Positions 3,811-63,991 of a stretch of DNA of 64,000 nt are shown in pieces. Under the pieces are notes generated by a model, which worked only from the letters and a program-made list of their open reading frames with translations, made no database searches and was not told the DNA's origin. The DNA is from Diphasiastrum complanatum. Taxonomy: Eukaryota; Streptophyta; Lycopodiopsida; Lycopodiales; Lycopodiaceae. The stretch's first letter is position 1, and each line of letters opens with the position of its first letter. The translations under genes were made by a program, and so were the position numbers. The stretch covers positions 77,564,580 through 77,628,579 of the forward strand of contig CM055096.1 in NCBI GenBank assembly GCA_029204225.1, written 5' to 3'.

Positions 3811-4005
3811 GAGGAGCGTGAGAATGGACGCCTGCTCAAAACCCTTATTCTCATGCTCTTGTGTGATCATGTAGGAGCACAAAAATAGGGCTTCTGACCA
3901 GGTCAAAGGGTCCATTCTTGCACTCCTCTCTGATCACGCAGGAGCACGAGAATTGGCAGTTTGACCTAGTTAGATGGTCTACTCTCGTGCTCCTTTGTGA
4001 TCGTC
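3811..4005. repeat. 67-bp tandem repeat, each unit carrying a 40-bp palindrome
   Basis: Imperfect palindromes of 40 bp lie at 3,847-3,886 and 3,914-3,953. Their left arm is like ATTCTCGTGCTCC and their right arm like GGAGCACGAGAAT. A further left arm begins at 3,981 and an extra right arm lies at 3,813-3,825. The period is 67 bp (61 for the first). The tract touches the 3' end of the decayed DUF7869-like gene and may belong to the terminus of the same mobile element. Confidence 0.7.
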
Positions 4006-4776
4006 TTATGAAATTTGTATCGTAAAACACGTGGCTTGGGAGTATAAGCCTCTCGAATAAGAGTCATCATCACCGGGAGAGTGAATGCATCATGACATGA
4101 CAATTTCCTTGTAAATGTATTGAACATCTGATCTATATGATCATGCGTATGACCAACCAGAAGAAAATTGAGTTTAACCCAAAACAAGCATGCTGAGATA
4201 ACCCAAAACCATCTGATTTTTATTCTCATGAGCTGTGTTGTCCACCCACTACAAGTAAAGTACTAGAGGTAAGCACGCTGGCCACGAAGATATCACTTGG
4301 TGCTTTATCGTAATTGTTAGATTCAGATCATTATGAACATTCGGATACATAAGATAAACTTTTGGGTGGACACATGCATTATAAATTAAACATCCAACCA
4401 AATGTATTTGAACAAATGTATCCTCTGTGATGTCCTTTGGGGTCCTAAGAAAGTGAGGCAAATTCGTTTTCTTCTGATCCATTCCATCAATCACAAATCC
4501 CATATATTTCTCAGGAAAAGAGAAACATTTTCTTCTATAATCCATCACTTTCTTTCTTTCTTGTGCTTGTTCCTCTCTATGACTTTTCCAGCTGACTTGA
4601 CATCCTCTGTGCCAGTTTTTAATCAACATTTTCCTTCTACTCTTGAGCTCGGCACAAATGCATTGACCCATTTGAACTTTTCTTGGAATTATAACCTCGT
4701 TGAAAAATAATTTCCAGATCCTAGTGAAGTATGAGTACCTTATAAATCTCTCAGAATTAATGTTCTCCACCTCCAA
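3966..4776 (-). pseudogene. DUF7869-like gene, decayed
   Basis: Two minus-strand blocks, 4,776-4,249 (175 codons) then 4,229-3,966 (87 codons), appear in the order expected of the DUF7869 family. That is a large eukaryotic family often found in repetitive, transposon-like genes, with no proven reaction that I know of. The first block carries the hallmark IDGMDQKKTNLPHF at about residues 95-110 and ends with DLNLTITI. The second carries the hallmark VGHTHDHIDQMF. By the usual layout several dozen residues between the two blocks are missing and the frame changes, so this copy is broken. Its start lies 24 bp from the start of the plus-strand gene beginning at 4,800, which suggests divergent transcription from a shared region. 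A role as an RNase H-fold transposase is only speculation. Confidence 0.6.
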
Positions 4777-4799
4777 AAAAATCTCGGAGTCGTCCTAAT

Positions 4800-7190
4800 T
4801 TGTCTCCTCCAATTTCAAAACCAACAAAATCAAAATGTGTTGTTCATGAATGGGCTCTGAAATACTCACAAGACAAAAGGTTTTCCCTTTTTATATCTAG
4901 GAAACCAGATCTTTCTTTAGATGTGAGCGATATTCAGTGTTGTGGAATGGTAACTTGGGTGGATTATGAAGGCGAGGATGATCTTGGTACAATTATCTTA
5001 ACTATTGAAGATCCCTCATCAAGTGCAAAATGATTATTTAGTTTGAATGAGAAATTGTGCAGACATGATTTGTGCTCCCCATCCATTTTGAAGAAGCACC
5101 TTCAATCTAGTTCCAATCATGATTGTCACGTTGGGGCCACTTGCAATGAAGGAGATACTAATAGAACCTTCGTCTGAGGAAGACGTCCGACATGGAAAAA
5201 GGCTTGCAATTTTTGTTGAGAAGCCAGTGAGACAGAAACTATTGGGCACAATAGATATAACTGAGACTTCGAAAGCACCTGTCACAGTTACAAAGAAGGT
5301 TCCAAAGAAATTTTTGCAAAAATTTGACCATTTATTCCATGTTGCTTTTAGGACAGGTGATATTGGGATCTGCAAGACCAAATATTCATGATGTGAAAAA
5401 ATAAACAGCTAAAAAATTAGAAGAGTGGACAGATAAAAGATGACATTGTAGGTGGAACCAAGTCCAAAAATAAAATAAAATACCTGATTATTGAAGAGTT
5501 GTCTGAAGAGATGAAAGGGCACCTGTGGAGATCTTTGCAAGGTGTGAGGGACGAAAAAGTCCTTAAATCTGTTCTGACAAGGGTTGTGGAAAAAGGAGCT
5601 CTCCTTAGAGGAGATGGCAGAAGAGTTTGGAAGGTGAATGATTTGATAAATTTTCTAGATTTTATGTTTCTAAGTACTCATAATACGGCTACAATGTTAA
5701 TTTGTCTCATTTTTTTGTCTTTATTCACTTGACGTTTTTGCACAAACACAAAAATTTTATGAGAATTCAAGAAATTATTGTGAAAAGACTAGCATGTTCA
5801 TCTTGGGATGAAGTTGTGGAGAATTATCATGTTTCGAGCTCGCATTCGGCATTGTTCGAGTATTTTCTTTCCTTCAAAAATTTCAAGGTGCGTGTAGATC
5901 TATTATGTTATTTAATACATACATCATAATCTATTTTTAAAACATTTTGCTGATTTGCTTTATTATTTGTAGCCGAAGTGTATCAAAGGTATGGATGTAA
6001 TTGATTGCCCGCCCAACTTGTTAATGCATATCGAAAGGGCAACTAAGGAGACAAATGTGTGAGACTTTGCCAATCGTGTCTGATGCATTCAAATTTGTTG
6101 TAAATAGTGATCCAACTTCCTTGCCTGACTATTATAAAATTTTTATTGGTGATGTACAAAATATGTGTGATATTCTTTTCGATTTGTTATTGCTGATATA
6201 CCCTATGGTTTCCGATTGCCCAATTCTATAAATGATGAAAAAGCGTTTACCTACAAGGAAGTGTCCAAATTGATTCTTGATTTTAAGCTCCTGACAACCT
6301 CTCCGTTCTAGAGGTTCTTAATATTTCATAGTGCAGCTCAAACAACTTTTGTTCTTGCATCCTTGAAGGAGCACACTCACGGGGCAAAGAACCTTATTTG
6401 GTATGTCATTTTATATGATGTGTTCTTAGATATCTAATTTATCATCATTTTTTAGATATATTTTTTATATTTTTTGTAACATTCAAATTTCAGGCACAAA
6501 ACAAATATCGGTTATGCACCAAGATCCAGATTGCTGAGTGCTTTTGAGATGATCAGTATTGGATACTTTGATGAGAAGAAGCACATCAAAGCTCACTACA
6601 TTGAAGATGGTAGTAATGTTCTTAGCTTTCCAGCCGTCACTCGAAAATGAAGGCATGTTGAAGGAAGTCATTCTCTTGTGAATCCCTACCAAAAGCCCCA
6701 ACGGTTAATCAATAGATTGATAAACTTGCTTTCGAGTGAAAGTGACTGGGTCTATCTGCAAGAACAGGTAAATGTTTATTATAAAGATTACATGCTAGTA
6801 CATAAATAATCACTTTGAAAAACTCTCTTCTTCAATATTATTGTGTTCAATTTTAGGTACAACAACATTGTGTACAGTGAAGCTTAGGAGATCCTACATT
6901 GCCTTTGAGCTTGATGAAATACAAGCTCCTTATACTGAGATGCGTGTAGCTGCCACAAATGAGCTCCCTGATGAGGATCAGGAGGTGGGGGCAATTATTG
7001 TTGCTGACAATGATAAGTTTCAAATGGCTTCTATGGAGTCAATGCCTCCAATCCACTCAAAAAAAAAGCTGAGCTTGGTGGGCTAGCAGACGAGACAATG
7101 ATTGGTGGGGAAGGAGGACTTGACAATGATAAATCTGAAGAGGAGAGAGATGAGGAGAAAGAGAGAAGACGGCTTCGAAAAAAATGACCA
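4800..7190 (+). pseudogene. beta-class DNA amino-methyltransferase (N4C/N6A type), multi-exon, decayed
   Basis: Several exons in order can be read. The first part (4,800-5,390) is unrecognised. A helical segment ending GDGRRVWK lies at 5,460-5,632, followed by an exon ending at 5,887 (SFKNFK). The exon at 5,973-6,400 begins PKCIKGMDVIDCPP and holds DIPYGF at 6,194-6,211, which corresponds to catalytic motif IV, DPPY. The exon at 6,494-6,767 reads HKTNIGYAPRSRLLSAFEM and NPYQKPQRLI, and the exon from 6,857 holds GTTTLCTVKLRRSYIAFELD, which corresponds to AdoMet-binding motif I. Introns 5,888-5,972, 6,401-6,493 and 6,768-6,856 all have GT...AG ends, and the 6,401-6,493 junction restores LIWHKTN exactly. 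Motif IV before motif I is the beta-class order. Stops (for example after KETNV, near 6,060) and frame changes within exons, an Ile in DPPY and a phase mismatch at the last junction show that it is dead. Such enzymes methylate cytosine N4 or adenine N6. Which base cannot be told. Confidence 0.65.
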
Positions 7191-7724
7191 ATTGTTAGAT
7201 ATCTAGAATCATATCATGGATGATATGATTTGACAAAACATTGATAAATTGTTTTAAATTGAATAAATTAATATAACACCATGGTTTTGAATTTCAAATG
7301 TTCAAAATTGTTTGTTTTTTGTTAATTAAGTAGAGCACAAGAATAGTGTGATGTTTGTTTGATTGGTAGAATTTGATTGCCACATGTTTTTATGAATGTA
7401 TTGTTGATGGATGCTTACAAAGCTATGTTTATTTTGTGATATCTAAATTTTCAAAAACGTAATTCTTAGTTCTCTTTAGCCTTATTACAACAATAAATTG
7501 CATATAACATAGAATTATGACATTTTTTAATTGTCATTGAAATGTCCAGTTAATATATCTCAATTTTAATATAAATTAAAATTATTATCAAATTAAAGAA
7601 TGCTGCAAAAATCCAAAGTATGTCTTATAAGATGGTTTTAATAAAGAAGAATTCAATTTGGGTTTACAATTTGTAAAGCTACTTAAAATTTTATAAATCA
7701 TGAACTTCATATAATCAATAATTA
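7191..7724. other. AT-rich spacer, nothing recognised
   Basis: Strongly AT-rich, without coding signal. It separates the methyltransferase remnant from the copia fragment that starts inside an integrase domain at about 7,725. Confidence 0.5.
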
Positions 7725-9255
7725 ATAAATAATTTCTAGTCGAGTTTTGTGAAACTAATGGCATAAAGAGAGAGTTTACTTGTACATATACTCCACAACA
7801 AAATGGAGTAGCTGAGAGAAAGAATAGGACACTATGTGAGTGTGCTAAAGCTATGAGATTAGATGCATCTCTTCCTATTTCATTTTGGGGAGAAGCTATT
7901 TTATGTGCAAATTTTCTTTGTAATAGGATGACTAATAGTGCCATTAAAGGACTTACACCTTATGAAGTATTGTTTGGCAAAAAGCCAAATCTTAGTGATT
8001 TGAAAGTTTTTGGATGTACTTGTTATGTACATATTCCTTTAGAAACAAGGAAAAAGGAAGATGCCACTTCTTTCAAAGGCATCTTTGTTGGTTATAGTGA
8101 AAGTAAGAAAGCTTATAGGATATATGATCCTATTACAAAAAAAGTTGTTACTAGTAGAGATGTACTTTTTGATGAATCTCTCCAAGCCAAAGGAAAGGTG
8201 ACTTCCAACAACACTCAACTTGACAAAGATCATGCTATGGCCGAGGAGGAGCTTCATGAAGACGAAGACCAAGTGGAACCTACTCCAAGTCCAAGGGTGC
8301 CAAGAGGATCAACAAGGACAAGGATTGAGCCATCAAGGCTCACTTATAGTGACAAAGGGGAGCAAAGGGAATATTCTCAACTACTCAACTTTTATACTTT
8401 CTTTACTACTATGCTTGAAGAACCAACTAGTTTTGAGGAAGCAAATAAGTGTCAATATTGGAGGAATACTATGCAAGTAGAGTTTGATGCATTAATGGAA
8501 AATCAGACTTGGAAACTTGTTGATTTATCTTATGGAAAGAAGGCTCTTACTTGTAAATGGATATATAGATTGAAATATAATCAAGATGGTTCCATTCATA
8601 AGTACAAAGCTAGACTTATAGCAAAAGGTTTTTTGCAAGTCAAAGGCATAGATTATGATGAAACCTTTGCACCTGTTGCAAAGCTTGTGACCATTAGATT
8701 AATCATATGTCTTGCGACTTCTTTCAAATGGGAGCTCTTCCAACTTGATGTGACAAATGCTTTCTTGAATGGATTCTTGAAAGAGAAAATCTACATGTGC
8801 CAACCTGAGGGCTTCATCAAAGATGGAGAAGAAGACAAGGTGTGTCTCTTGAAGAAGAGTCTTTATGGACTCAAGCAAGCACCAAGAGCATGGTACTCTA
8901 GGTTGCATTCCTATCTTCTTTCCATTGGATTTGTTATAAATTCTTATGAACCATCATTGTACTACAAATGTAATGATGGAAAGATCATTATCTTAGTTTT
9001 ATATGTTGATGACACTATACTCACAGGAAATGATCTAGATGGCATCAAGAATGTAAAAGTTTCCTTGTCTAGTGAATTTAAGATGGTAGATCTAGGACTT
9101 CTTAAAGTTATACTTGGAATAGAAGTCACTAGAAGTAATGATTTTACCTTCATATGTCAATCTAAGTATGCTAGATCAATCTTAGCAAGATTTGGCATGA
9201 TTGATTGTAAAGGAGGGCAAATTATTTATTTAATAATTCAATGCTTAAATGTTCG
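7725..9255 (+). mobile_element. Ty1/copia fossil: integrase end and reverse transcriptase
   Basis: The fragment starts inside the integrase (YTPQQNGVAERKNRTLCE), continues through the copia integrase C-terminus (LFGKKPNLSDLKVFGCTCYVH) and the linker, and contains most of the reverse transcriptase. Visible motifs are KWIYRLKYNQDGS, KARLIAKGF, FQLDVTNAFLNG, SLYGLKQAPRAWY and the YVDD box (VLYVDDTIL). One frame stays open for almost 500 codons. Gag, protease and both LTRs are absent on this side. It is a truncated, moderately old copy. Confidence 0.9.
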
Positions 9256-10925: not shown

Positions 10926-11160
10926 ACAGCAGATAACGTTTAATAATAGTGGAAGTATATCTACTGTAAGCAAGCATCAAAATCATTCACAATTACACAC
11001 CATAGGCAGAATGTTGTGAAAATTAAAAAGCCATCCAACTTGACTTTTGTGGTTGATGAAGATTTTTATCTTGCATGTAGTGTTACAACTTGTAAATATC
11101 AAAATTAGCCTTGTAGAAACTCTAGCTACATCTCATGCAATAATGTCTACTTGTCATATG

Positions 11161-14100
11161 TGACATGCATATAGATTTAGATCATGAAATGGCCAAACTT
11201 GGGCTAGTAGAAACTCGAGGTACCATAAATGCATAAAGTCCTAAATGTCCAAAGTGACATGCAAGGTATGCAAAAGTTGTCATGTACACATGCAAGTGAA
11301 ATTGTACTTTAGTAGTGTAGAATTTGCCACATGTAGAAAGTAGGTAGATATAGGTGCATAAACATGCATGCAAAGTGATATGTGTCACTATTTTGGTAGA
11401 TTAGACTTGTAGATGTCGAGAAAAGTGGTTGCGTGTTAGTACTACCATGAGCTACAATCATTTCCTATATATGTAAGTGAGAATCAAGCATTGTAGCAAA
11501 TTCATGGCAATTTGGATATTATAATTGTAAGCTTGTATTGTGATTCTCTCTCTAACTCTAGGAGATCCTTTTTCTCATGTGATAAATTTTCATTGTACTT
11601 TCTCACACGTGTGGAATGTAGTTACTTTTGATTATTTGCATTATGGATTGTGTTCTAGCCTTGGATTCTAGTATTAGATTGTGGATTTCACTCTAAATGT
11701 GATGGCATGTGCTATCACAAAGCTTAGGGAAGGTCATTGACACATTTGTGGTTTCCCCACATATGTGTACTTGCTGGTTTTTTTCACATGGTATCAGAGC
11801 CATACTAAGCTCTTACTGCAATAATCAGTCTGTGCATGAGAAATACTGAGATAATTCAAGCTAGGAAGCAGGATTTCACAATTTTCTATCAATTTTTTTG
11901 GATCTTGTGAATTGTAGAGGTCATTAATGTAATGATCAGATCTGAACAGAGGATGTACGGATTTCAGACTATTCACAAGTGTGAAATCCAGCCCATCTCT
12001 TTCCTTTTGTTCTCCCTTATGCTTCATCCAAAGATATTGATAGTATAGCTTGCTGGAAAGCTAAAGATGTCTACTTTCCACTACAAATGGTTTCAAATCA
12101 TTCTGATGAGCCTAGCAAGATTTGTAAACACTCAAAGTAGGGTGTGTAGTTCGTCTAATCCTGTGTGGCCACTATTGATTTGATCCAGGAATTTGCTAGT
12201 TTGATTCTAAATCCATTTCTGAGTTGTCAATCATAGATAGAATTGTTCTGAACAAGTTTGTGAAGTCATAGTCACATCATTTCACACAACTGAGTTGTGT
12301 TTGAGTTTCATGTGAGATTCTAGAGTGTTTTTCAATACTTTGAAACTCTGAAAAAGTTGACATCGAACTTGTAAGTGCTTCATCACTAGATAGAGGCTAG
12401 TTTCAAATTCAAGTTGATTGATTATCTGTTGTGAGCTAGATCTCATATATTTTGTGGCAATTTCAATAGGTTGGATTAACATTCCAAGTTAGATCCTAGG
12501 TTGAGAGAGAAGCAACACATTCAATTCCATTTATTTGTGATTACTAGAAAAAATTTCAAAGAGAACATGACATCCATGGGTTCATATCTCTTGGATCATG
12601 GTGAGAGGTTAACATCTTCCAATTATGCTATTTGGAAGATAAGAATGAATCATTATTGGTTCTTCAATATGTGATGGACATTGTGTTAGGAATTGAGGTC
12701 GAACCTGAAGCTCCTAATGAAGCTCAGACATTCAAGAAGAGATCTAGAATTGCTTTTCATTTTATCAAGATGAATGTGTCCAATGAAGTGTTAAGAGATA
12801 TTAGTTCTTGCACCTTAGCCAAGGAGGCTTGGGATATCCTTAAGACAATTTATGAAGCAAAGAACACATCAAGATTACTCACACTTAGAAATCAGGTATT
12901 TCTAAGCTATCAAAGAGTTGATGAGAGTGCTTCAAACTATGTCATGAGAGTTAAAGATCTTCACAGAGAACTAGCATGCATTGGAGATACTCTAGAGAAA
13001 AATGAACTTGTTCAAGTAATCCTTTATGGATTAAGAGATGAGTATGAAAACATTCTCCAATCCTATGCTAACAGGGAGGAGCTACCATCATTGGAAACTC
13101 TTCAAGGAGTCCCGATTGCTGAAGAAAGCATGCAAGAGAACAAGTTGCTGAGGATCAATAAACTCTCATTGAAGGATAGTGGAGATGACAAAGCACTCTT
13201 CACCAAGGACAAGTCAACAGGCAAGGGCAAAGGACAACATCAACACTTCAAGAAGGACAAGGACAAAGCAAAGAACAAAGACTATGATGGAGAAGAAGAT
13301 GATTTATTTCATTCTGAGACACTCATGGTGTCAAGTTTCTCCTCTACACCCCTCAATGATGTATCTTGGTATATTGATAGTGGTGCTACATCACATACGA
13401 GTTACACCAAAAGTTCTTTTGTTTCTATTGAACCTTTTCAAGAACTTAAAGAATCAATATACACAGCTATTGGTCATGCATGTTCTATTGAAGGAGTTGG
13501 AAGCATTTTCTTGAATCGTGCATCTTCTATGAGTTTATCACTTTCCAATGTACTTTTTGTTACTAAACTCACAAAGAATTTGATTAGTGTTGAAAAGTTG
13601 CTTGATGATGGTTTTTATGTGGAATTCAATATCAGTAATTGTATCATTAAGAAACGTGATGAGATTCTAGCATGTGGATCAAAATATGGTGGCATTTCAA
13701 GTTAGATCTACATGAAAGTACAAGTCCTTGTGATAATGCTTTGATGACTAGTATTTCCAATGAGGAAGTATGGCATAGGAGATCTGATGATACCAATTTC
13801 ATATCTATGTCTTCGATAGTCAAGGAGATCAAGCCAAGGAGATCCAAGTTTATGGATCATAGTTGGATGCTTATCCACCAAGGAGGGCTATAAAGCCTTT
13901 ATATTCTCTATCTCAAAGGTGCTTGAGAATGGAGATTGTATCATTCATGAAGATCTATTTTCAACCTTGGAAAGGGCTGAGATCATTGTATCTCAAGGTG
14001 CACAAGTCATTTCTATTGAGAATAGTCAACTTATGATGGGGTCAAGGTTTGCCAGAGGAGTATCCTCAACATGTGTATTCAAGGGGATCTTCGTTATACA

Positions 14101-24592: not shown

Positions 24593-25008
24593 TAATCAAA
24601 CTCATCTCTAGGAAGGATTACAATCTCACTTAAATCACAGGTCTCTTCAAAATTCTTAAAGGTCAGTACACTTATTGATTTATCATTCACATAAAGCTAG
24701 TCTTGAATCAACTTAAATGAAATCAAGTTGGACTTGAAAACAATGGATCACATAAACTCATTCACATATAACGGAAGCACTGAGGGGTCAAGATGGGACC
24801 CCCCCCCCCCCCCCCTCTTCCCGAAGGATATTTCTTGTCATTATGCAAAACCAATTGGCCTATGCCAATTACATATACATTGGATTCCATCAAGGGTCTC
24901 AACTTAGGAATAAAAACTTACTTCCTTTCAATGGTCTTAATTCCAAATCTAGCTCATCATAGGCATAGGATTCTATTCATAAACCTTAATTCTTCTGACA
25001 TGCAATCA
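24593..25008. other. spacer with a poly-C run
   Basis: No gene seen. A run of about 18 C lies at 24,798-24,816, preceded by GATGGGA. Confidence 0.5.
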
Positions 25009-25355
25009 CAAACTTGACATGCAATCATGACGGATCATAGAAACTTGACATGCAATCATGATGGATCATAGATACTTGTCATGCAATCATGATTGATCAT
25101 AGTTACTTGACATGCAATCATGATGGATCATAGAAACTTGACATGCAATCATGATGGATCATAGATACTTGTCATGCAATCATGATTGATCATAGTTACT
25201 TGACATGCAATCATGATGGATCATAGAAACTTGACATGCAATCATGATTGATCATAGATACTTGACATGCCATCATGAGTTTGACATGCAATTCATGACT
25301 GATCACAGATACTTGACATGCAATCATGATGGATCATAGAATCTTGACATGCAAT
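25009..25355. repeat. 31-bp satellite, about 11 units, partly in 93-bp higher-order triplets
   Basis: The core CTTGACATGCAATCATGAT followed by GATCATAG recurs every 31 bp from about 25,014 to 25,350. Units differ at the base after CTTG (A or T), in GATGG versus GATTG, and in the junction (AAA, ATA, TTA). The three types recur in the same order, giving a 93-bp higher-order period for at least two rounds before the array degrades. Confidence 0.9.
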
Positions 25356-25942
<587 letters not shown>

Positions 25943-26099
25943 TCCAAGAGGATTTGAGCTTCAAGATCTTCCAATCCAAAATTCAGCATAGCCTCCTTGA
26001 GCCAATGCTTCAATCTTCTTCTCCAAAGCACCTGTACACAAGAACAAATAAGAGGGAAGCGCTAGGAAGCACAAACCTACAATACCCTTGGTAGGGGGG

Positions 26100-31445: not shown

Positions 31446-33231
31446 TTGTCAAAAAAAATTTGCCCCACACATTACGTTTTGTGAGTCATCGACATTTCCT
31501 TTATAGAAATTTAAAAACTGATTTTACGGCAGGAATAATGGCAGGTCCCCTAGCGTTTGGCTTCATTCTGCTTTTGTATAACTGAACGCTCAAATTTTAA
31601 GGCCTCACCATCGGATATTTTTAGCATTCAAATCTTCACACGTTCTATATTTAACGATCAAGATCCTTGCACGTGTCCAATTGTGACTCGTGTCTAACAT
31701 CCAAGTGAACACACTTGGATTCCTTTGGACGTCGACGACGACGACTTCGGCCCTCGGCTCGCGTGGCAGAAGGTGCTCCATGGGTTTACAGGCACGGAGC
31801 ATTTGAAGCCTTCTCACTTGGATTTATGCCACGTTGTAGAAATTATTTCCAACGGTAGATTTACTCCACGTGGCAAAATCTGAACGCTGATAGTTGGATC
31901 TAAAGGTGGCGAGCTTTAAATCATAGCGTGCCATTAAAATAAAGGGGCTTGTGATGCCTCATTGTCTTTCTGGTCGTGCCTGGCAGGTCAGCGGCCCAGT
32001 TTTTAATCTTATTGACACGCAATATTACACGCCCGACACCGTTGGATTTTCAGTTGAGCGTTCCGATTTGTCCACGTGTTAGTAATTTATTATGAGATGC
32101 GATTTTAATACGTGGCAGACATCCAAGTGGTTTGAGGGAGGATATCCCGTGCCAATAAGCCGTCACGCGTTACGCGTTCGCAGCGCCCGTTTGGCAGGGG
32201 CAGCAGATGAAGAAGAAGAAGATGGAGAAGAAGAAGATGAAGAAGAAGAAGAGATGGTGGGCGATGGGGCGAGAATAGGAAATAGCGATGGAATTGTTCA
32301 GAAATTTCGTGTGAGGATTGCGTGTGCCTCTAGTCTATGAGGAATGGATGCCTACATTCTGACGCAGGATTGCGTGTTCCTTTGCTCTATGCGGAATTGA
32401 TGCCTTGACTCTATATCAGAATATGCATATTCACGGTATCTGTGAGCTATGGCCAGAGAAGATATATGTCAGGACTGTGCAAGTCACGTATGCTAGAAGA
32501 CAGCGATTAAAACGCCCTGTCAAAAGTATCGTTAGTCTGCTACTCACCGCTCTGGAGTTGGAGCAAATCCTAGAGCACATCCTATCCGTTTAGATTTGCT
32601 GAGGTTGGTGTTCGCAAATAGGAGTTACATGTGGAAAGACGACGCATTGAATCTGATCAGGATTCTGCGGTTGACCTGCAGAGGCTGCCAAAGTTTCTCT
32701 CGTCATGTAACTGCTAAAAATTGTCACTGACAGAGGTTGTGCTTGTGATTCTCTGCTTCGGCCAAAATAAGAAGGCCCGAAGTTTTTCGCCTCTAAAACG
32801 TCTGGTTGATTGTCTCCAATTTTCTTCTATTTTCAGAAGAGCCCCCTTGATTATGTTCTTTGAGGTCTTCTGGGTTTGCGCAAGCGCTTTTGGTTCGAGA
32901 GGCAGAAAAATTGATTCATTAAGCAATCTCAAAAGTGCTTACTATGGTACTGTATCTCTGCAGTAGGTAGAGAGTAGTTAGAGAGGGATCTGCTTCATTC
33001 ATGCTTTTCTTTCACATGAGAAGAAAATGCTGACGAGCATCTACCGCATGTATGTATTCAATGTTAGCTCTAATTTGGTTCGGTGAATCCCAGTCTCTTG
33101 TTCTCGGACTCCTCGGGCTGCATTGTAGAAACAGAGGTAGCACGTCCCAACCGAAAGACGCACCAAAGAGGCGTACCCGAAATTGGATAGAAAATTTCGG
33201 ATCTAGTTGGAGTTGAAAAATCTGGGAAAAA
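31446..33231. other. upstream region of the glutaredoxin-like gene
   Basis: No conserved protein is visible. The GC content is higher than in flanking repeats. It contains a palindromic G-box core CCACGTGG at about 31,867-31,875 and a GAA-rich stretch at 32,205-32,253. Part of it, perhaps from about 32,700, is likely promoter and 5' UTR of the gene starting at 33,232. The transcription start cannot be fixed from sequence. Confidence 0.4.
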
Positions 33232-35189
33232 ATGGGTTGCGCTTCTTCTCATGAGTATGTGCAAAGTGGGAAGAAGACGAAGAAAAGATGGATTGCTCCA
33301 GAATCACATGATTTGCTCCATGGAAAGCACCTTACGTCGTCCTTCATCCACAGTGCCGAAGCTTTGGACCAAAAGCTCCAATTCAGATCGTCAATTTCCC
33401 AATCAGAAGCTAGAATTGCGATGACGAATGCTCCTTATTTGCCAAAGCTGGAATCTCTAGAAAAAGATCATGGATATGAGAGAACGCGCAGTTTGAAATT
33501 TGCAAATGATTTGCTGACGAATCAGATTTTGGAAACGAATGCCACTTCAACGAAGATCGGAACATTTTCTGGTCCTATGAAACTTAACCGTGAGTTGTCG
33601 AATGAACCAGAAGTTATTGATGTTTGCGAGCTCATGGAAGGATTAGAAGACGCAGAAGATCTGAGTTGCTCTTCTTTCAGAATACCCAGAACAGACAAGC
33701 ATCAAACGCACAATAGGTCCAGTTCATTGAGTAATGTGCCAAGTCCTCGGGATGTTGCCAATACGAAACCACCTGTTGATTCAGAATCTCGAAGAAAGAG
33801 GCATTCACTTTCCCAGTCGCATCGACAACGTACAAAGTTCCATTCTTTTGTTCTAGGAAATCCTAAAGCGAAGAATTCTCCTTCTGGTGATACATCACAA
33901 ATCCAAGATACCGTTACCGTGATCAAAGAAGTCATTGAGAGCCAGAAGCCTCAACGTGCCGGTGTAGTTATTAAGAAACTTTCTGATTCTTTAAGTTTTA
34001 TACGTGCAGAATCACGTAAGCATTCTAGTCAAGTTACCCAAATCGGCATTTCAGACCTGTTACCGGACCAGGTCGGCTCTCTCGGTAGGGTTGATGTCAG
34101 CGAGAAAAGTCAGGAACATCAGTTTTCAAATAAAAGCATGATCACAGACCATTCAATGAAATCTTTGGACTCAACCACAAGCTTCGCTTTTGAGTCATCT
34201 TCTAAGAATTCCTTGAAAGATGATGAGATTCTCAGCGCGGATGCTGTGGATGAGTTTTCTTTTAGCACTCAGAGTCCTTTGAAGGAAGCGCGGGATAAGT
34301 CGGCGCACCTTGCCCCAGGAGACGATGTGGTTTCCAAAGGAGATAGTTTGTTGGAAGGATTTTTGGAAGGTCCTAGTTTTGATGGGAATTCCGCTTTGTT
34401 TCCAAGTATTCCCTTACAGAGCATGAAATATGTGAATCTAAGCGATTTTGAAAAGTTAATACCTCCTAGGGGAGAGAACAGAGTGGTCCTATATGCAACT
34501 AGCTCTTCTGAATCACGCAAGACTTACGAGGATTGCAACCTTGTTAGGCAGATCCTTTGCAGCTATAATCTAGATATGGATGAAAGAGATCTTTCGCTTC
34601 ATCCAGAATTCAAGCACGAATTACAGATAATACTGCAGAAGACTAGTACTGTTTCCGTTCCAAGGTTATTCATCAAGGGCAGGTATTGGTTTTGGCATAT
34701 ATAAACTACCATTTTGTTATTGATCTTTGACGCGTTACGTACTTGAAGCTTTTGATACCTTTCATTCAACAAAAGTTAGCCTGGTCAGGATATGATTGAT
34801 TTTCTGTGGCACCTAGTAAATTTGTCTGCGAATAGAGCAGATGGCCGCATTTTGCATGACTTGACAATTAAGATTTTGCAGACAAAGTGTTTTTTTGGAT
34901 TGAAGAATCGCCTTAAATTCGCATTGTTTCTGGATCTTGTTGTTTCTACAGGCACATTGGAGGTGTAGAAGAAGTTTGCCTTTTACATACGGCAAAAGCA
35001 CTTGAGAGGTTGCTACAAATTTTTTCATCAGAGTACATAAAAGCACTTTGTGTGTGTTGTGGTGGAACCCGTACTCTTCAGTGTCTGGGATGCAACGGGA
35101 TGTGCCTTATTAAAACTGAAGAAGGCGATGTAATATCTTGCAGTGAATGCGAAAAGAAAGGGTGGATAATGTGCCCTATCTGCTCTTAA
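33232..35189 (+). CDS. glutaredoxin-like protein with C-terminal CxxC zinc module, two exons
   Basis: Exon 1 is 33,232-34,682, the GT-AG intron is 34,683-34,951, and exon 2 is 34,952-35,189. The 1,689 nt give 562 residues with matching phase (FIKG-R-HIGGVEEV across the junction). The N-terminus MGCASS is a typical N-myristoylation plus palmitoylation signal, suggesting membrane attachment. A long, Ser-rich, probably disordered region follows. The glutaredoxin fold spans about residues 415-510 (VVLYATSSSESRKTYEDC, VDERDLSLHPEF-like MDERDLSLHPEFK, VPRLFIKG, HIGGVEEV). The C-terminus has four CxxC pairs (CVCC, CLGC, CSEC, CPIC), as in DnaJ-type zinc fingers. This layout is that of the plant At5g39865-type family. 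As in that family, the CPYC redox site is replaced (here SESR), so thiol-transfer activity is doubtful and the partner is unknown. The gene appears intact. Confidence 0.9.
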
Positions 35190-58907: not shown

Positions 58908-59946
58908 ATGCAAATATAGTAATGGACACATGCAAGTAGAATTGTAGGTTCATAGTTGAGAAATTGGCATTTGGAGAAAGTAGGTAGAGTTAGATGCAAT
59001 TTCTGCATGCAAGTTGTTAGGTGTCAATATGGTGGTAACTTGAGGAAATGCATTGAATGCTAGTAAATACCACTAGCTAAGGCTCTCCTATATATGTACA
59101 TATGGTTCTCATTCATTTCTAATCATGAATCAAGTTTTGGTAAGGTCATAATGTCAAAATTGGATCTCATGCTATTTTGCTTGTAATTGTATTCTCTCTC
59201 TAACTCGAGATTGGTGTCTTCTTCATACATTATTATGCTTATGTATTTTCCCTATTTGTGAGGAATTAGTGTTGCTTTGATTTGTAGCATTCTAGATTGT
59301 GCTCTAGCCTTAGATCTGTTGGTAGAATGTAGTATTACTCTGCAGGTGATCTGTGTGCCACCATAAAGCATGGTAAAGATCATTCACACTTTTGTTGTGG
59401 TTCCCCACATGTGTGAAGTTGCTGGATTTTTCACATGATATCAGAGCCATACCATGCTTTGAATGCTACTAATATCAGGTGTATGAAGAATTTTCTGACA
59501 ATTCAAGCTAGAAAGCTGTTTTTTTGCTATCTATTCTTGAACAGTTTTTGGATCAATGAGGTTACAACTGATATTTTTAGTCCAGAACAGAGGATGTATG
59601 GAATTCTGACTTTTCACACATGTGAAAAACAAAATACATCATTTCATTCTATTTCCTTAATGCTAGGTCCAAAGGTACTAACATTATAGCTTGTTGGAAA
59701 GCTAGAAGAGTCTACTTTCCAGTGCACTTGGTTTCAATTCATTCTGATGATCCTAGTAGGAGTTATTAGCTCTTAAAGAGGGGTAGGGAGAGACCCAAAA
59801 CCCGAGTGGACACTTTTTTATTTGAATATATTGCATGCATGATTCATCATTCACAGCTTTTGGTACTCAATCAAAGATAGAATTGGATAAGATGAGGCAT
59901 GGAGGCCTCGAATTTGTCAGATTCTTATGTGTTACAATGTCTAGAT
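58908..59946 (+). mobile_element. copia family X: partial LTR, primer site, leader (plus strand)
   Basis: The 3' four-fifths of a family X LTR end at 59,435 (TTTTTCACA). A primer site TGATATCAGAGCC at 59,436-59,448 and leader sequence follow. It is the first part of the block duplicated at 61.9-64 kb. There is no gag. Broken fossil. Confidence 0.8.
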
Positions 59947-60270
59947 TGACATGCATGTAGATTTACACATAGAATTGGTCAAACATGGACTTGGAGGAAC
60001 TCGAGCCATATCAAATCCATTGTGTCCTAAGTTTCTATTGAGACATGCATAGCATGCAAATATAGTAATGGACACATGCAAGTAGAATTGTAGGTTCATA
60101 GTTGAGAAATTGACATTTGGAAAAAGTAGGTAGAAGTTAGGTGCAATTTCTGCATGCAAGCTATTACGTGTCAATATGGTGGTAGTTTACACTTGATTAG
60201 GTGTAGGAAATGCATTGAATGCTAGTAGTACCATGAGCTAAGGCTCTCCTATATATGTACATATGGTTCT
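59947..60270 (+). repeat. copia family X: 5' half of an LTR, left arm of a fold-back
   Basis: It starts TGACATGCATGTAG, like the LTR at 11,161, and runs about 320 bp before switching at about 60,271 to inverted sequence. Its reverse complement lies at about 60,721-61,050, and the inverted match extends a little beyond the LTR edge (ACAATGTCTAGA on both sides). Confidence 0.85.
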
Positions 60271-61232
60271 CATTGATCCAAAAAAATTTCAAGAATAGAT
60301 AGCAAAAAAGGGCTAAACAACTTTCTAGCTTGAATTGTCGAAAAAAATTTCATACACCTGATGTTAGTAGCATTCAAAGCATGGTATGGCTCTGATATCA
60401 TGTGAAAAATCCAGCAACTTCACACATGTGGGGAACCACAACAAAAGTGTGAATGATCTTTACCATGCTTTATGGTGGCACACAAATCACCTGCAGAGTA
60501 ATACTACAATCTACCAACAGATTTGAGGCTAGAGCACAATTTAAAATGCTACAGATCAAAGCAACACTAATTCCTCACAAATAGGAAAAATACATAAGCA
60601 TAATAATGTATGAAGAAGACACCAATCTCGAATTAGAAAGAGAATACAATTACAAGCAAAATAGCATGAGATCCAATTTTGACATTATGACCTTACCAAA
60701 GCTTGCTTCATCATTAGAAATGAATGAGAACCATATGTACATATATAGGAGGGCCTTAGCTCATGGTACTACTAGCATTCAATGCATTTCCTACACCTAA
60801 TCAAGTGTAAACTACCACCATATTGACACCTAACAGCTTGCATGCAGAAATTGAACCTAACTTCTACCTACTTTCTCCAGAAGTCAATTTCTCAACTATG
60901 AACCTACAATTCTACTTGCATGTGTCCATTGCTATATTTGCATGTTATGCATGTCTCAATAGAAACTTAGGACACAATGGATTTGATATAGCTCGAGTTC
61001 CTCCAAGTCCATATTTGACCAATTCTATGTGTGAATCTACATGCATGTCACTCTAGACATTGTGAACATTGTTGCATGTCATACTAGACCAACTAAACAT
61101 TTTGCATGTCAATGGAATTTGATCTACCTAATCCAAACTCGCCCTATTCTACAAGGATATGTGCTCAATTCACACACCTTGAATATGTACAATCAATTTA
61201 CATGGGTAGAACCCCCAAAATCAACATACGTA
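60271..61232 (-). mobile_element. copia family X in reverse: leader, primer site, full LTR
   Basis: On the minus strand the LTR is 61,050-60,401 (650 bp, TGACATGC...TTTTTCACA), the primer site TGATATCAGAGCC is 60,400-60,388, and the leader continues to about 60,271. It pairs with the plus-strand half LTR at 59,947-60,270. Sequence to 61,232 is unassigned but is included in the duplication. Confidence 0.85.
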
Positions 61233-61880
61233 AGATAGATATGTTTTACAATTCTTCACACTCCTCCTTAAAATATATCTATATGATGTTGATGAATATC
61301 CTTTGTGTGTGAATTCTTTGCTTTGCATTTGAAGTGAAGATCCAAAGAATCCATCATAGCAGCACGCTTACCAAATCCACGATAAGATCTCTTTGATAGA
61401 AATCTTTTCCAAATGCCTTTAAAAAATATTCCACCAATCTGCCACTATGTCGATATGCCTCCTCCATGCTTGATACTGATCTCAGATTTGAGAAGTCCAC
61501 ATGCATGAAGATGGCTGCATAAGAATCTGAAAAACTCGAGGCCTCCATGCCTCATCATGATCACAAAGATCATATAGATCAAGATTATACCATGAGCAAT
61601 ATTCAAGATTAAGCACACTAGCTTAATTAGTCCAAACACTATGAACTCTATCCAAAATGGATCTAATCTTGAAACCAAAATCTCATTGAGGCTAAATACT
61701 TTCTTAAGGATGTAAGTGTCCTCATTGGATGTTTCACTTACTCTCAAAAGAAGTTTACAATATGCCTCAAAACATGAAAAAACTCCTTTTTCCAAACTAT
61801 GAGTACTAAACTCATTCTTGCTCTTACTCAATTTAAGAGCACACAAATGATGATACGATATCTTGCTTTCTAGATATTTT
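61233..61880 (-). mobile_element. copia 3' end remnant: polypurine tract and unassigned frame
   Basis: On the minus strand a purine tract AAGGAGGAG lies at 61,261-61,269, next to an LTR-like edge (TGTGAAGAATTG) of the same form as at 54,336. Upstream on that strand is a long frame with IGGIFFKGIWK, which faintly recalls the ADIFTKAL words near the end of copia RNase H, and a strongly hydrophobic stretch at about 61,560-61,670. It is the unduplicated spacer between the two fold-back blocks. Broken fossil. Confidence 0.4.
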
Positions 61881-63991
61881 GCAAATATAGTAATGGACAC
61901 ATGCAAGTAGAATTGTAGGTTCATAGTTGAGAAATTGGCATTTGGAGAAAGTAGGTAGAGTTAGATGCAATTTCTGCATGCAAGTTGTTAGGTGTCAATA
62001 TGGTGGTAACTTGAGGAAATGCATTGAATGCTAGTAAATACCACTAGCTAAGGCTCTCCTATATATGTACATATGGTTCTCATTCATTTCTAATCATGAA
62101 TCAAGCTTTGGTAAGGTCATAATGTCAAAATTGGATCTCATGCTATTTTGCTTGTAATTGTATTCTCTCTCTAACTCGAGATTGGTGTCTTCTTCATACA
62201 TTATTATGCTTATGTATTTTCCCTATTTGTGAGGAATTAGTGTTGCTTTGATTTGTAGCATTCTAGATTGTGCTCTAGCCTTAGATCTGTTGGTAGAATG
62301 TAGTATTACTCTGCAGGTGATCTGTGTGCCACCATAAAGCATGGTAAAGATCATTCACACTTTTGTTGTGGTTCCCCACATGTGTGAAGTTGCTGGATTT
62401 TTCACATGATATCAGAGCCATACCATGCTTTGAATGCTACTAATATCAGGTGTATGAAGAATTTTCTGACAATTCAAGCTAGAAAGCTGTTTAGCACTTT
62501 TTTGCTATCTATTCTTGAACAGTTTTTGGATCAATGAGGTTACAACTGATATTTTTAGTCCAGAACAGAGGATGTATTATTTGAATATATTGCATGCATG
62601 ATTCATCATTCACAGCTTTTGGTACTCAATCAAAGATAGAATTGGATAAGATGAGGCATGGAGGCCTCGAATTTGTCAGATTCTTATGTGTTACAATGTC
62701 TAGATTGACATGCATGTAGATTTACACATAGAATTGGTCAAACATGGACTTGGAGGAACTCGAGCCATATCAAATCCATTGTGTCCTAAGTTTCTATTGA
62801 GACATGCATAGCATGCAAATATAGTAATGGACACATGCAAGTAGAATTCTAGGTTCATAGTTGAGAAATTGACATTTGGAAAAAGTAGGTAGAAGTTAGG
62901 TGCAATTTCTGCATGCAAGCTATTACGTGTCAATATGGTGGTAGTTTGCACTTGATTAGGTGTAGGAAATGCATTGAATGCTAGTAGTACCATGAGCTAA
63001 GGCTCTCCTATATATGTACATATGGTTCTCATTGATCCAAAAAAATTTCAAGAATAGATAGCAAAAAAGGGCTAAACAACTTTCTAGCTTGAATTGTCGA
63101 AAAAATTTTCATACACCTGATGTTAGTAGCATTCAAAGCATGGTATGGCTCTGATATCATGTGAAAAATCCAGCAACTTCACACATGTGGGGAACCACAA
63201 CAAAAGTGTGAATGATCTTTACCATGCTTTATGGTGGCACACAAATCACCTGCAGAGTAATACTACAATCTACCAACAGATTTGAGGCTAGAGCACAATT
63301 TAAAATGCTACAGATCAAAGCAACACTAATTCCTCACAAATAGGAAAAATACATAAGCATAATAATGTATGAAGAAGACACCAATCTCGAATTAGAAAGA
63401 GAATACAATTACAAGCAAAATAGCATGAGATCCAATTTTGACATTATGACCTTACCAAAGCTTGCTTCATCATTAGAAATGAATGAGAACCATATGTACA
63501 TATATAGGAGGGCCTTAGCTCATGGTACTACTAGCATTCAATGCATTTCCTACACCTAATCAAGTGTAAACTACCACCATATTGACACCTAACAGCTTGC
63601 ATGCAGAAATTGAACCTAACTTCTACCTACTTTCTCCAGAAGTCAATTTCTCAACTATGAACCTACAATTCTACTTGCATGTGTCCATTGCTATATTTGC
63701 ATGTTATGCATGTCTCAATAGAAACTTAGGACACAATGGATTTGATATAGCTCGAGTTCCTCCAAGTCCATATTTGACCAATTCTATGTGTGAATCTACA
63801 TGCATGTCACTCTAGACATTGTGAACATTGTTGCATGTCATACTAGACCAACTAAACATTTTGCATGTCAATGGAATTTGATCTACCTAATCCAAACTCG
63901 CCCTATTCTACAAGGATATGTGCTCAATTCACACACCTTGAATATGTACAATCAATTTACATGGGTAGAACCCCCAAAATCAACATACGTA
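61881..63991. repeat. second copy of the family X fold-back block (direct duplication of 58,920-61,232)
   Basis: From GCAAATATAGTAATGGACAC at 61,881 to CAACATACGTA at 63,991 the sequence repeats 58,920-61,232 in the same order and orientation. The order is partial plus-strand LTR, primer site at about 62,407, half LTR from 62,706, and inverted full LTR at 63,160-63,809. Differences are very few, and a 64-codon frame (60,606-60,800 and 63,365-63,559) is identical in both. The second copy is about 200 bp shorter. The duplication is therefore recent relative to the elements it contains. Confidence 0.92.

Follow-up and report, generated by a model that had tools for sequence, protein, structure and literature searches.

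Bacterial-type amino-methyltransferases have been recruited into eukaryotes before. A known case is that of the bdelloid rotifers, in which N4CMT combines a catalytic SPPY with a chromodomain and is described as an allelic pair in Adineta vaga (PMC8885841). According to the same source, the amino-methyltransferase domain has repeatedly switched between 6mA and 4mC (Rodriguez et al., PMC8885841). DNA methyltransferases (MTases) are also carried by retrotransposons: DIRS-type elements encode a Dam-like adenine MTase, and LINE, DIRS, and Gypsy elements carry DNMTs (PMC5890265, PMC3266345). Roles of these enzymes in regulating transposition or opposing host silencing are discussed by de Mendoza et al. 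(PMC5890265). A DNA transposon with a beta-class amino-MTase was not found within the open-access literature searched.

The window, by which we mean the whole 64,000-nucleotide stretch of Diphasiastrum complanatum DNA analysed, contains a decayed, intron-bearing beta-class amino-MTase gene at 4830–7187 (+). The gene and its relatives share the motif order, D-x-P-Y, and SGSGTT with the bacterial and phage beta-class enzymes (PF01555; CcrM, PRK11524, and phage DNA methylases), which are also the best matches in Pfam, NCBIfam, PHROGs, and PADLOC. Unlike those enzymes, the MTase has at least one intron, a long N-terminal part, and a place in a high-copy eukaryotic element, and it is about 21–39% identical to the phage proteins among the matches listed. 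Like bdelloid N4CMT, which has introns as well, and liverwort DN4MT, it is a bacterial-type amino-MTase in a eukaryote, but it has a D-type motif in place of the SPPY of N4CMT and occupies a hundred or more sites, where N4CMT is an allelic pair. As with the DIRS, LINE, and Gypsy carriers, a mobile element brings along a DNA MTase that its copies conserve; those retrotransposons encode Dam-like or cytosine-C5 enzymes, whereas here the enzyme is beta-class, its partner is a DUF7869 gene, and reading by eye between the element ends picked up no reverse transcriptase frame. We interpret the locus as a damaged, inactive member of a DNA transposon family with two genes, in which a divergent DUF7869 gene, likely the transposase, accompanies a D-type beta-class MTase and a long member measures ~8.5 kb (probability roughly 0.75).

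The decayed methyltransferase gene

The features of the locus are as follows (window coordinates).
3969–4794, minus: decayed DUF7869 (putative transposase) fragment, head-to-head with the MTase gene; PF25273 E 2.8e-20 for two joined pieces
4830–5165, plus: MTase N-terminal region, no function assigned (piece N1); defined by its frames, with TGA 5031 in frame
5164–5636, plus: MTase middle region in two frames (pieces N2 and N3); weak collinear matches to loci L172, L173, and L166 (E 0.002–0.009)
5756–6059, plus: piece M1, two stretches around a proposed intron, ahead of the catalytic domain
5888–5972, plus: proposed intron A, GT...AG, from the window sequence alone
6064–6400, plus: exon with motif IV, containing a frame change and TAG 6309
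6195–6212, plus: DIPYGF, motif IV-like, from the window translation
6401–6493, plus: intron B, GT...AG, position common to other copies
6494–6767, plus: exon with the NPYQKP...LI stretch ahead of motif I, containing TGA 6648; PF01555 E 0.032 on one piece
6510–6533, plus: GYAPRSRL, from the window translation
6681–6698, plus: NPYQKP, from the window translation
6768–6856, plus: proposed intron C, a GT...AG stretch; other copies read through without it
From 6856, plus: GTTTL, part of motif I, in the unspliced window translation
6857–7187, plus: last part, with the remaining motif I (GTTTL) followed by IAFELDE, and with a charged tail that is read in a different frame

All of the peptides predicted by the first-pass annotation lie on the plus strand, at most one base from the places first stated. 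DIPYGF, placed at 6,194–6,211, is present one base further on, and GYAPRSRL, NPYQKP, and then GTTTL follow as described. Their order, in which we place motif IV first, KP..L...LI second, and motif I last, was called beta-class, and collinear alignment with a viral MTase profile and with other copies bears this out. In-frame stops (TGA 5031, TGA 6060, TAG 6309, and TGA 6648, for example) and frame changes indicate decay, so the description of the gene as a dead copy stands.

Three GT–AG introns can be drawn in the gene, as had been proposed, and the other copies confirm one of them and contradict another. The junctions of intron B recur in L166, L171, and L169, and in a search with the window core protein the matches of several copies are interrupted at query residue 76 by a gap of ~80 bases that corresponds to this intron. 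At the place of proposed intron C, in contrast, the fetched copies have a gap of ~21 bases and no intron, and relatives on contigs C12 and C10, 70–79% identical, align straight across it (residues 76–183 and 76–172, respectively). Judged from these alignments, 6768–6856 would be either a private intron or an insertion. An intron common to the subfamily is not supported: matches that stop near residue 163 can equally well be explained by damaged residues beyond that point, and others run through.

In each general library the best match of the joined window exons is an amino-MTase, and all of these matches are weak: PF01555 at E 0.0052 (17.2 bits, below the cut-off of 26.7), the NCBIfam adenine MTases CcrM and PRK11524 at 1.2e-4 and 0.036, and a PHROGs methyltransferase at 0.0016. 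One of three shuffled controls matched an unrelated family at 0.0025. Therefore, a stronger profile test was built from viral beta-class MTases. Of 137 proteins from 148 fetched phage or viral loci (short or cut loci dropped), 41 remained after filtering at 70% identity. The resulting profile, whose seeds are phage matches to the window query, scores 31.2 bits on the joined exons (E 4.3e-9). When the window is scanned blind as 636 six-frame tiles, the four best-scoring tiles all lie at 6001–7800 on the plus strand. If the scan allows for frame changes and introns, 6000–7200 scores 44.9 bits, against 27.7 for the best other window tile, and none of 500 dinucleotide shuffles reaches that score (maximum 24.4). 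The blind scan and the shuffles rule out chance motifs.

In a tblastn search, 17 of 50,697 phage records matched at E values of up to 10 (best 0.06). Eight of them are annotated as methylase or methyltransferase and cover 66–73% of the query, spanning the exon joins; two unannotated records cover 71–74%, and a further methyltransferase covers 27%. The remainder comprises five records with other annotation (31%) and an unannotated one (18%). A PDB sequence search gave no matches. Searches of viral contigs with pieces of the window, with DUF7869, and with the L175 last exon gave no useful match, and neither did a search of a genome contig collection with the last exon of L157. A DUF7047 match on the M1 exon (E 0.002, also 0.046 and 0.0051) is below the cut-off and is not claimed.

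Decisive for the gene being real is that other copies in the genome match the window exon for exon and in the same order. Among the 20 fetched loci, exon 6494–6767 is matched by all (E 2.5e-16 to 3.8e-9). The motif IV exon is matched by 17 (E 1.1e-17, in L166, to 0.026) and the last part by 15 (best E 2e-9), and the viral profile matches both. Further upstream the matches thin out: six loci match the first stretch of M1 (best E 1.8e-5), none of the fetched loci matches its second stretch, and L159 alone among them matches piece N1, on its minus strand (E 1.8e-13). The assignment of the gene to the beta-class amino-MTases is upheld.

Apart from itself and one twin, the nearest relatives of the window copy are mostly 60–84% identical to it, and some are without stops. 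The twin (G000:C5:30066214-30069804) lies on the same contig at 30.07 Mb, 47 Mb away; two overlapping comparisons, each covering 3.2 kb, put it at 99.5% identity to window 4679–8267. It carries the same four checked stops and the start of the adjoining Copia-like frame. The common stops mean that the copy was dead before the block was duplicated, or that the assembly repeats the block; on the best reading of the alignments, the window copy was probably duplicated with its flank after its death, unless the block is an assembly repeat. The window also contains a Copia-type gag, which together with a glutaredoxin-domain gene is in keeping with a plant host, and Copia-like frames were read by eye, one of them adjoining an MTase copy.

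Copy number and conservation of the methyltransferase

We searched the genome (1,744,706,496 bases, 1.74 Gb, in 5176 contigs) with PF01555. All 150 candidates scored, of 1605 at first look, exceed the curated cut-off (best E 1.1e-13), whereas the window copy falls below it; the PF01555 comparison proposed in the first-pass annotation thus succeeds for the family and fails for the window copy. The 24 largest contigs, each of which carries some, hold 123 of the 150 places, with at least 118 sites more than 20 kb apart among those scored. Some of the other 27 places resemble second versions of sites on the large contigs. A search with the window core protein gave 201 matches, with 150 of 2158 candidates scored. 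Since the matches fall on all 24 largest contigs, contamination is ruled out. The annotation had reckoned that one to three copies would fit a host gene and tens to hundreds a mobile element. At least 150 scored copies, with some on every large contig, argue for a mobile element, in agreement with its suggestion of a mobile gene carrying such an enzyme.

Among the 17 copies in which motif IV is aligned, 13 have DIPY there, and the other four are also without SPPY. DIPYGF in the window is therefore the family motif and not a product of decay, and kinship with bdelloid N4CMT, which the first-pass annotation had offered as one of two alternatives, is not supported. A D-type, DIPY-like motif IV is the type of N6-adenine MTases, and on this motif the target base would be adenine in DNA. 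The last-exon frame of L157 matches PRK11524 (1.9e-12) and CcrM (2.4e-10) in NCBIfam, far below the models' own cut-offs, and that of L175 likewise matches adenine-specific MTase models far below theirs. In PADLOC the last-exon frames match type II, type III, and orphan MTases, and 192 phage records match them with an E of 0.01 or lower. No Pfam chromodomain match occurs in the window pieces or in the last-exon frame of L175, the C-termini being incompletely modelled.

Of the 20 copies, 15 retain an intact motif I GSGTT, and the last exon is conserved. For dN/dS we used 16 of the 20, dropping L157 and L176 (near-twins of L158 and L175) as well as L160 and L164, whose exon contains a stop. This left 120 pairs; 114 of them could be used, and 69 fell within the dS range chosen. 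The median is 0.24 (quartiles 0.18–0.38), with none of the 69 pairs at 1 or above; because the copies are the top profile scorers, conserved ones are favoured and the ratio may be lowered. The 12 youngest pairs have values of 0.46–0.77, a pattern that would arise where selection acts on the lineage that is passed on and inserted copies are free to decay.

In an MTase tree, 17 rows of this genome, the window included, group together against 20 viral rows (20 of the 41 profile proteins, some with very long branches), and no donor is indicated. The N-terminal half of the element MTase protein has a conserved stretch at L173:2794-3075 and L162:2460-3288. A ParB-type domain in this region looked plausible by eye; it has no Pfam support and was set aside.

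The DUF7869 gene and the element ends

The partner gene is a strong member of DUF7869 (PF25273), a Pfam name that gives no described function and that no paper within the open-access literature searched was found to use. One piece from L157 scores E 1.6e-22, and the window pieces are about 37–53% identical to those of element copies; an N-terminal DUF7869 piece (DUFn) has no match within the window at E 1e-4. All 150 scored places in the genome, of 2953 candidates, are strong (best E 1.7e-53), and none of 14 control genomes has a match. DUF7869 is thus present genome-wide as a large transposon-like family of its own. With more first-look candidates than the MTase (2953 vs 1605), it may also exist without the MTase. 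IDGMDQ, LDN, and GHTHxxID-like stretches, recognised by eye, suggest a DDE-type, RNase H-like transposase.

The two genes are divergently paired in many copies. We read 20 MTase copies at 10 kb each, and 6–9 kb of extra upstream DNA for seven of them. DUF7869 pieces lie upstream on the opposite strand in eight of the 20 (L157, L158, L160, L162, L163, L169, L172, and L173), as in the window; L157 and L158, 99% alike, may be alleles, and L160 and L169 have one piece each. Among the seven copies read further, five have DUF7869 upstream. In 12 of the 20, DUF7869 is absent from the expected side of the DNA read, which for ten of these covers ~4.7–5 kb upstream; two of the 12, L159 and L167, were read further upstream and still lack it there. 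A close subfamily copy on C10 has no DUF7869 within 4 kb upstream. In L164, one of the 12, the DUF7869 pieces are on the other side, seemingly in an adjoining element; the remaining 11 show none at all in the DNA read, which for nine of them covers ~4.7–5 kb upstream. There, at L164:4416-7692, the right end of one element is followed directly by the DUF7869 part of another, a tandem or nested insertion. When the top 150 MTase places are compared with the top 150 DUF7869 places, three pairs lie within 10 kb (0.26 expected), two of them divergent.

Element ends are seen in other copies; the window yielded neither terminus. At the left the boundary is sharp: in a search with the leftmost 152 bases (1063 candidates), 27 of 40 scored genome matches begin at one base. 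Seven of the 40 have a top-150 DUF7869 domain 1.3–1.9 kb inside on the opposite strand, and three, the query copy among them, have an MTase 6.5–10.8 kb inside on the same strand; this count drew on 10 of the 150 MTase places and on the DUF7869 places of C1–C24. At the right, L172, L173, L174, L159, and L164 stop at the same sequence. The inverted ends are short and imperfect, with AACAYGATGAC at the left and, as reverse complement, AACATGATGAC or close to it at the right. L173 is the only copy read with both ends and, with its upstream stretch, measures ~8.5 kb end to end (3755–12253 of L178 joined to L173). It also provides the single case of a candidate 4-base target duplication, GTAG. A reading by eye, as opposed to a profile search, noticed no reverse transcriptase frame between the ends.

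Interpretation and alternatives

The element would thus consist of short imperfect inverted ends (AACAYGATGAC...), DUF7869 on one strand, and a multi-exon protein ending in the MTase on the other. It would likely transpose as DNA, with DUF7869 as its putative transposase. The MTase domain is of bacterial or phage ancestry. What the enzyme does for the element is a matter of speculation: it may mark element DNA and thereby steer transposition or counter host silencing.

The main competing explanation is that DUF7869 transposons are the mobile unit and the MTase is captured cargo without function for them. The excess of DUF7869 among first-look candidates, the stops in many MTase copies, and the 12 copies without DUF7869 in the upstream DNA read are in its favour. 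Idle cargo, however, would lose the conservation seen in the last exon (dN/dS 0.24) and in DIPY (13/17) and GSGTT (15/20), measured though it is on copies picked by score, and we regard this explanation as improbable. Far less probable still is that the MTase gene in the window is the remnant of a low-copy host gene, kin to N4CMT/DN4MT and derived from a bacterial gene acquired once as an epigenetic writer. Such a gene would be an intron-bearing beta-class MTase in a eukaryote, for which bdelloids offer a precedent (PMC8885841), but the number and spread of the scored candidates contradict it, and the linked DUF7869 and a motif IV that is D-type and not S-type also speak against it. Accidental pairing of two genes from separate repeats that insert into each other is equally hard to credit: the genome is full of nested repeats and the DNA read from several copies shows no DUF7869, yet order and divergent orientation are the same in eight of 20 copies and the window. 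Between L162 and L173, moreover, two stretches that jointly hold both genes, one of ~2.9 kb and one of ~5.1 kb, can be aligned at ~90% identity.

On our preferred reading, the MTases already known from retrotransposons are joined by one that travels with a DNA transposon, as the partner of DUF7869 and of beta class, and DUF7869 gains a likely role. Members of the PF01555 family occupy a hundred or more places in a single eukaryotic genome. PF01555 matches in plant gene sets may accordingly be transposon genes and not host epigenetic enzymes. A further proposal, which we advance tentatively and think somewhat more apt to fail than to hold, is that a cut-and-paste transposon family of a land plant encodes an adenine-type MTase of phage or bacterial origin, kept under selection, that writes 6mA for transposition control or anti-silencing. 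The lineage is said to have lost its native DNA-6mA pathway (PMC12695648), and if the proposal is true, 6mA would be written there by a mobile element. Whether a mobile element can write bacterial-type marks on plant DNA is now a testable question.

The rest of the window contains several unrelated features. An open frame of 495 codons at 33217–34701 has a C-terminal glutaredoxin domain (PF00462, E 5.4e-10) and is likely a host gene. At 24979–25401, a tandem array of 31-base units adjoins a long GA/CT microsatellite (about 25515–26091). A cluster of long direct and inverted repeats, with arms of up to 500 bases at 95–100%, occupies 58908–63822, and a more distant copy of it lies near 11160–11958.
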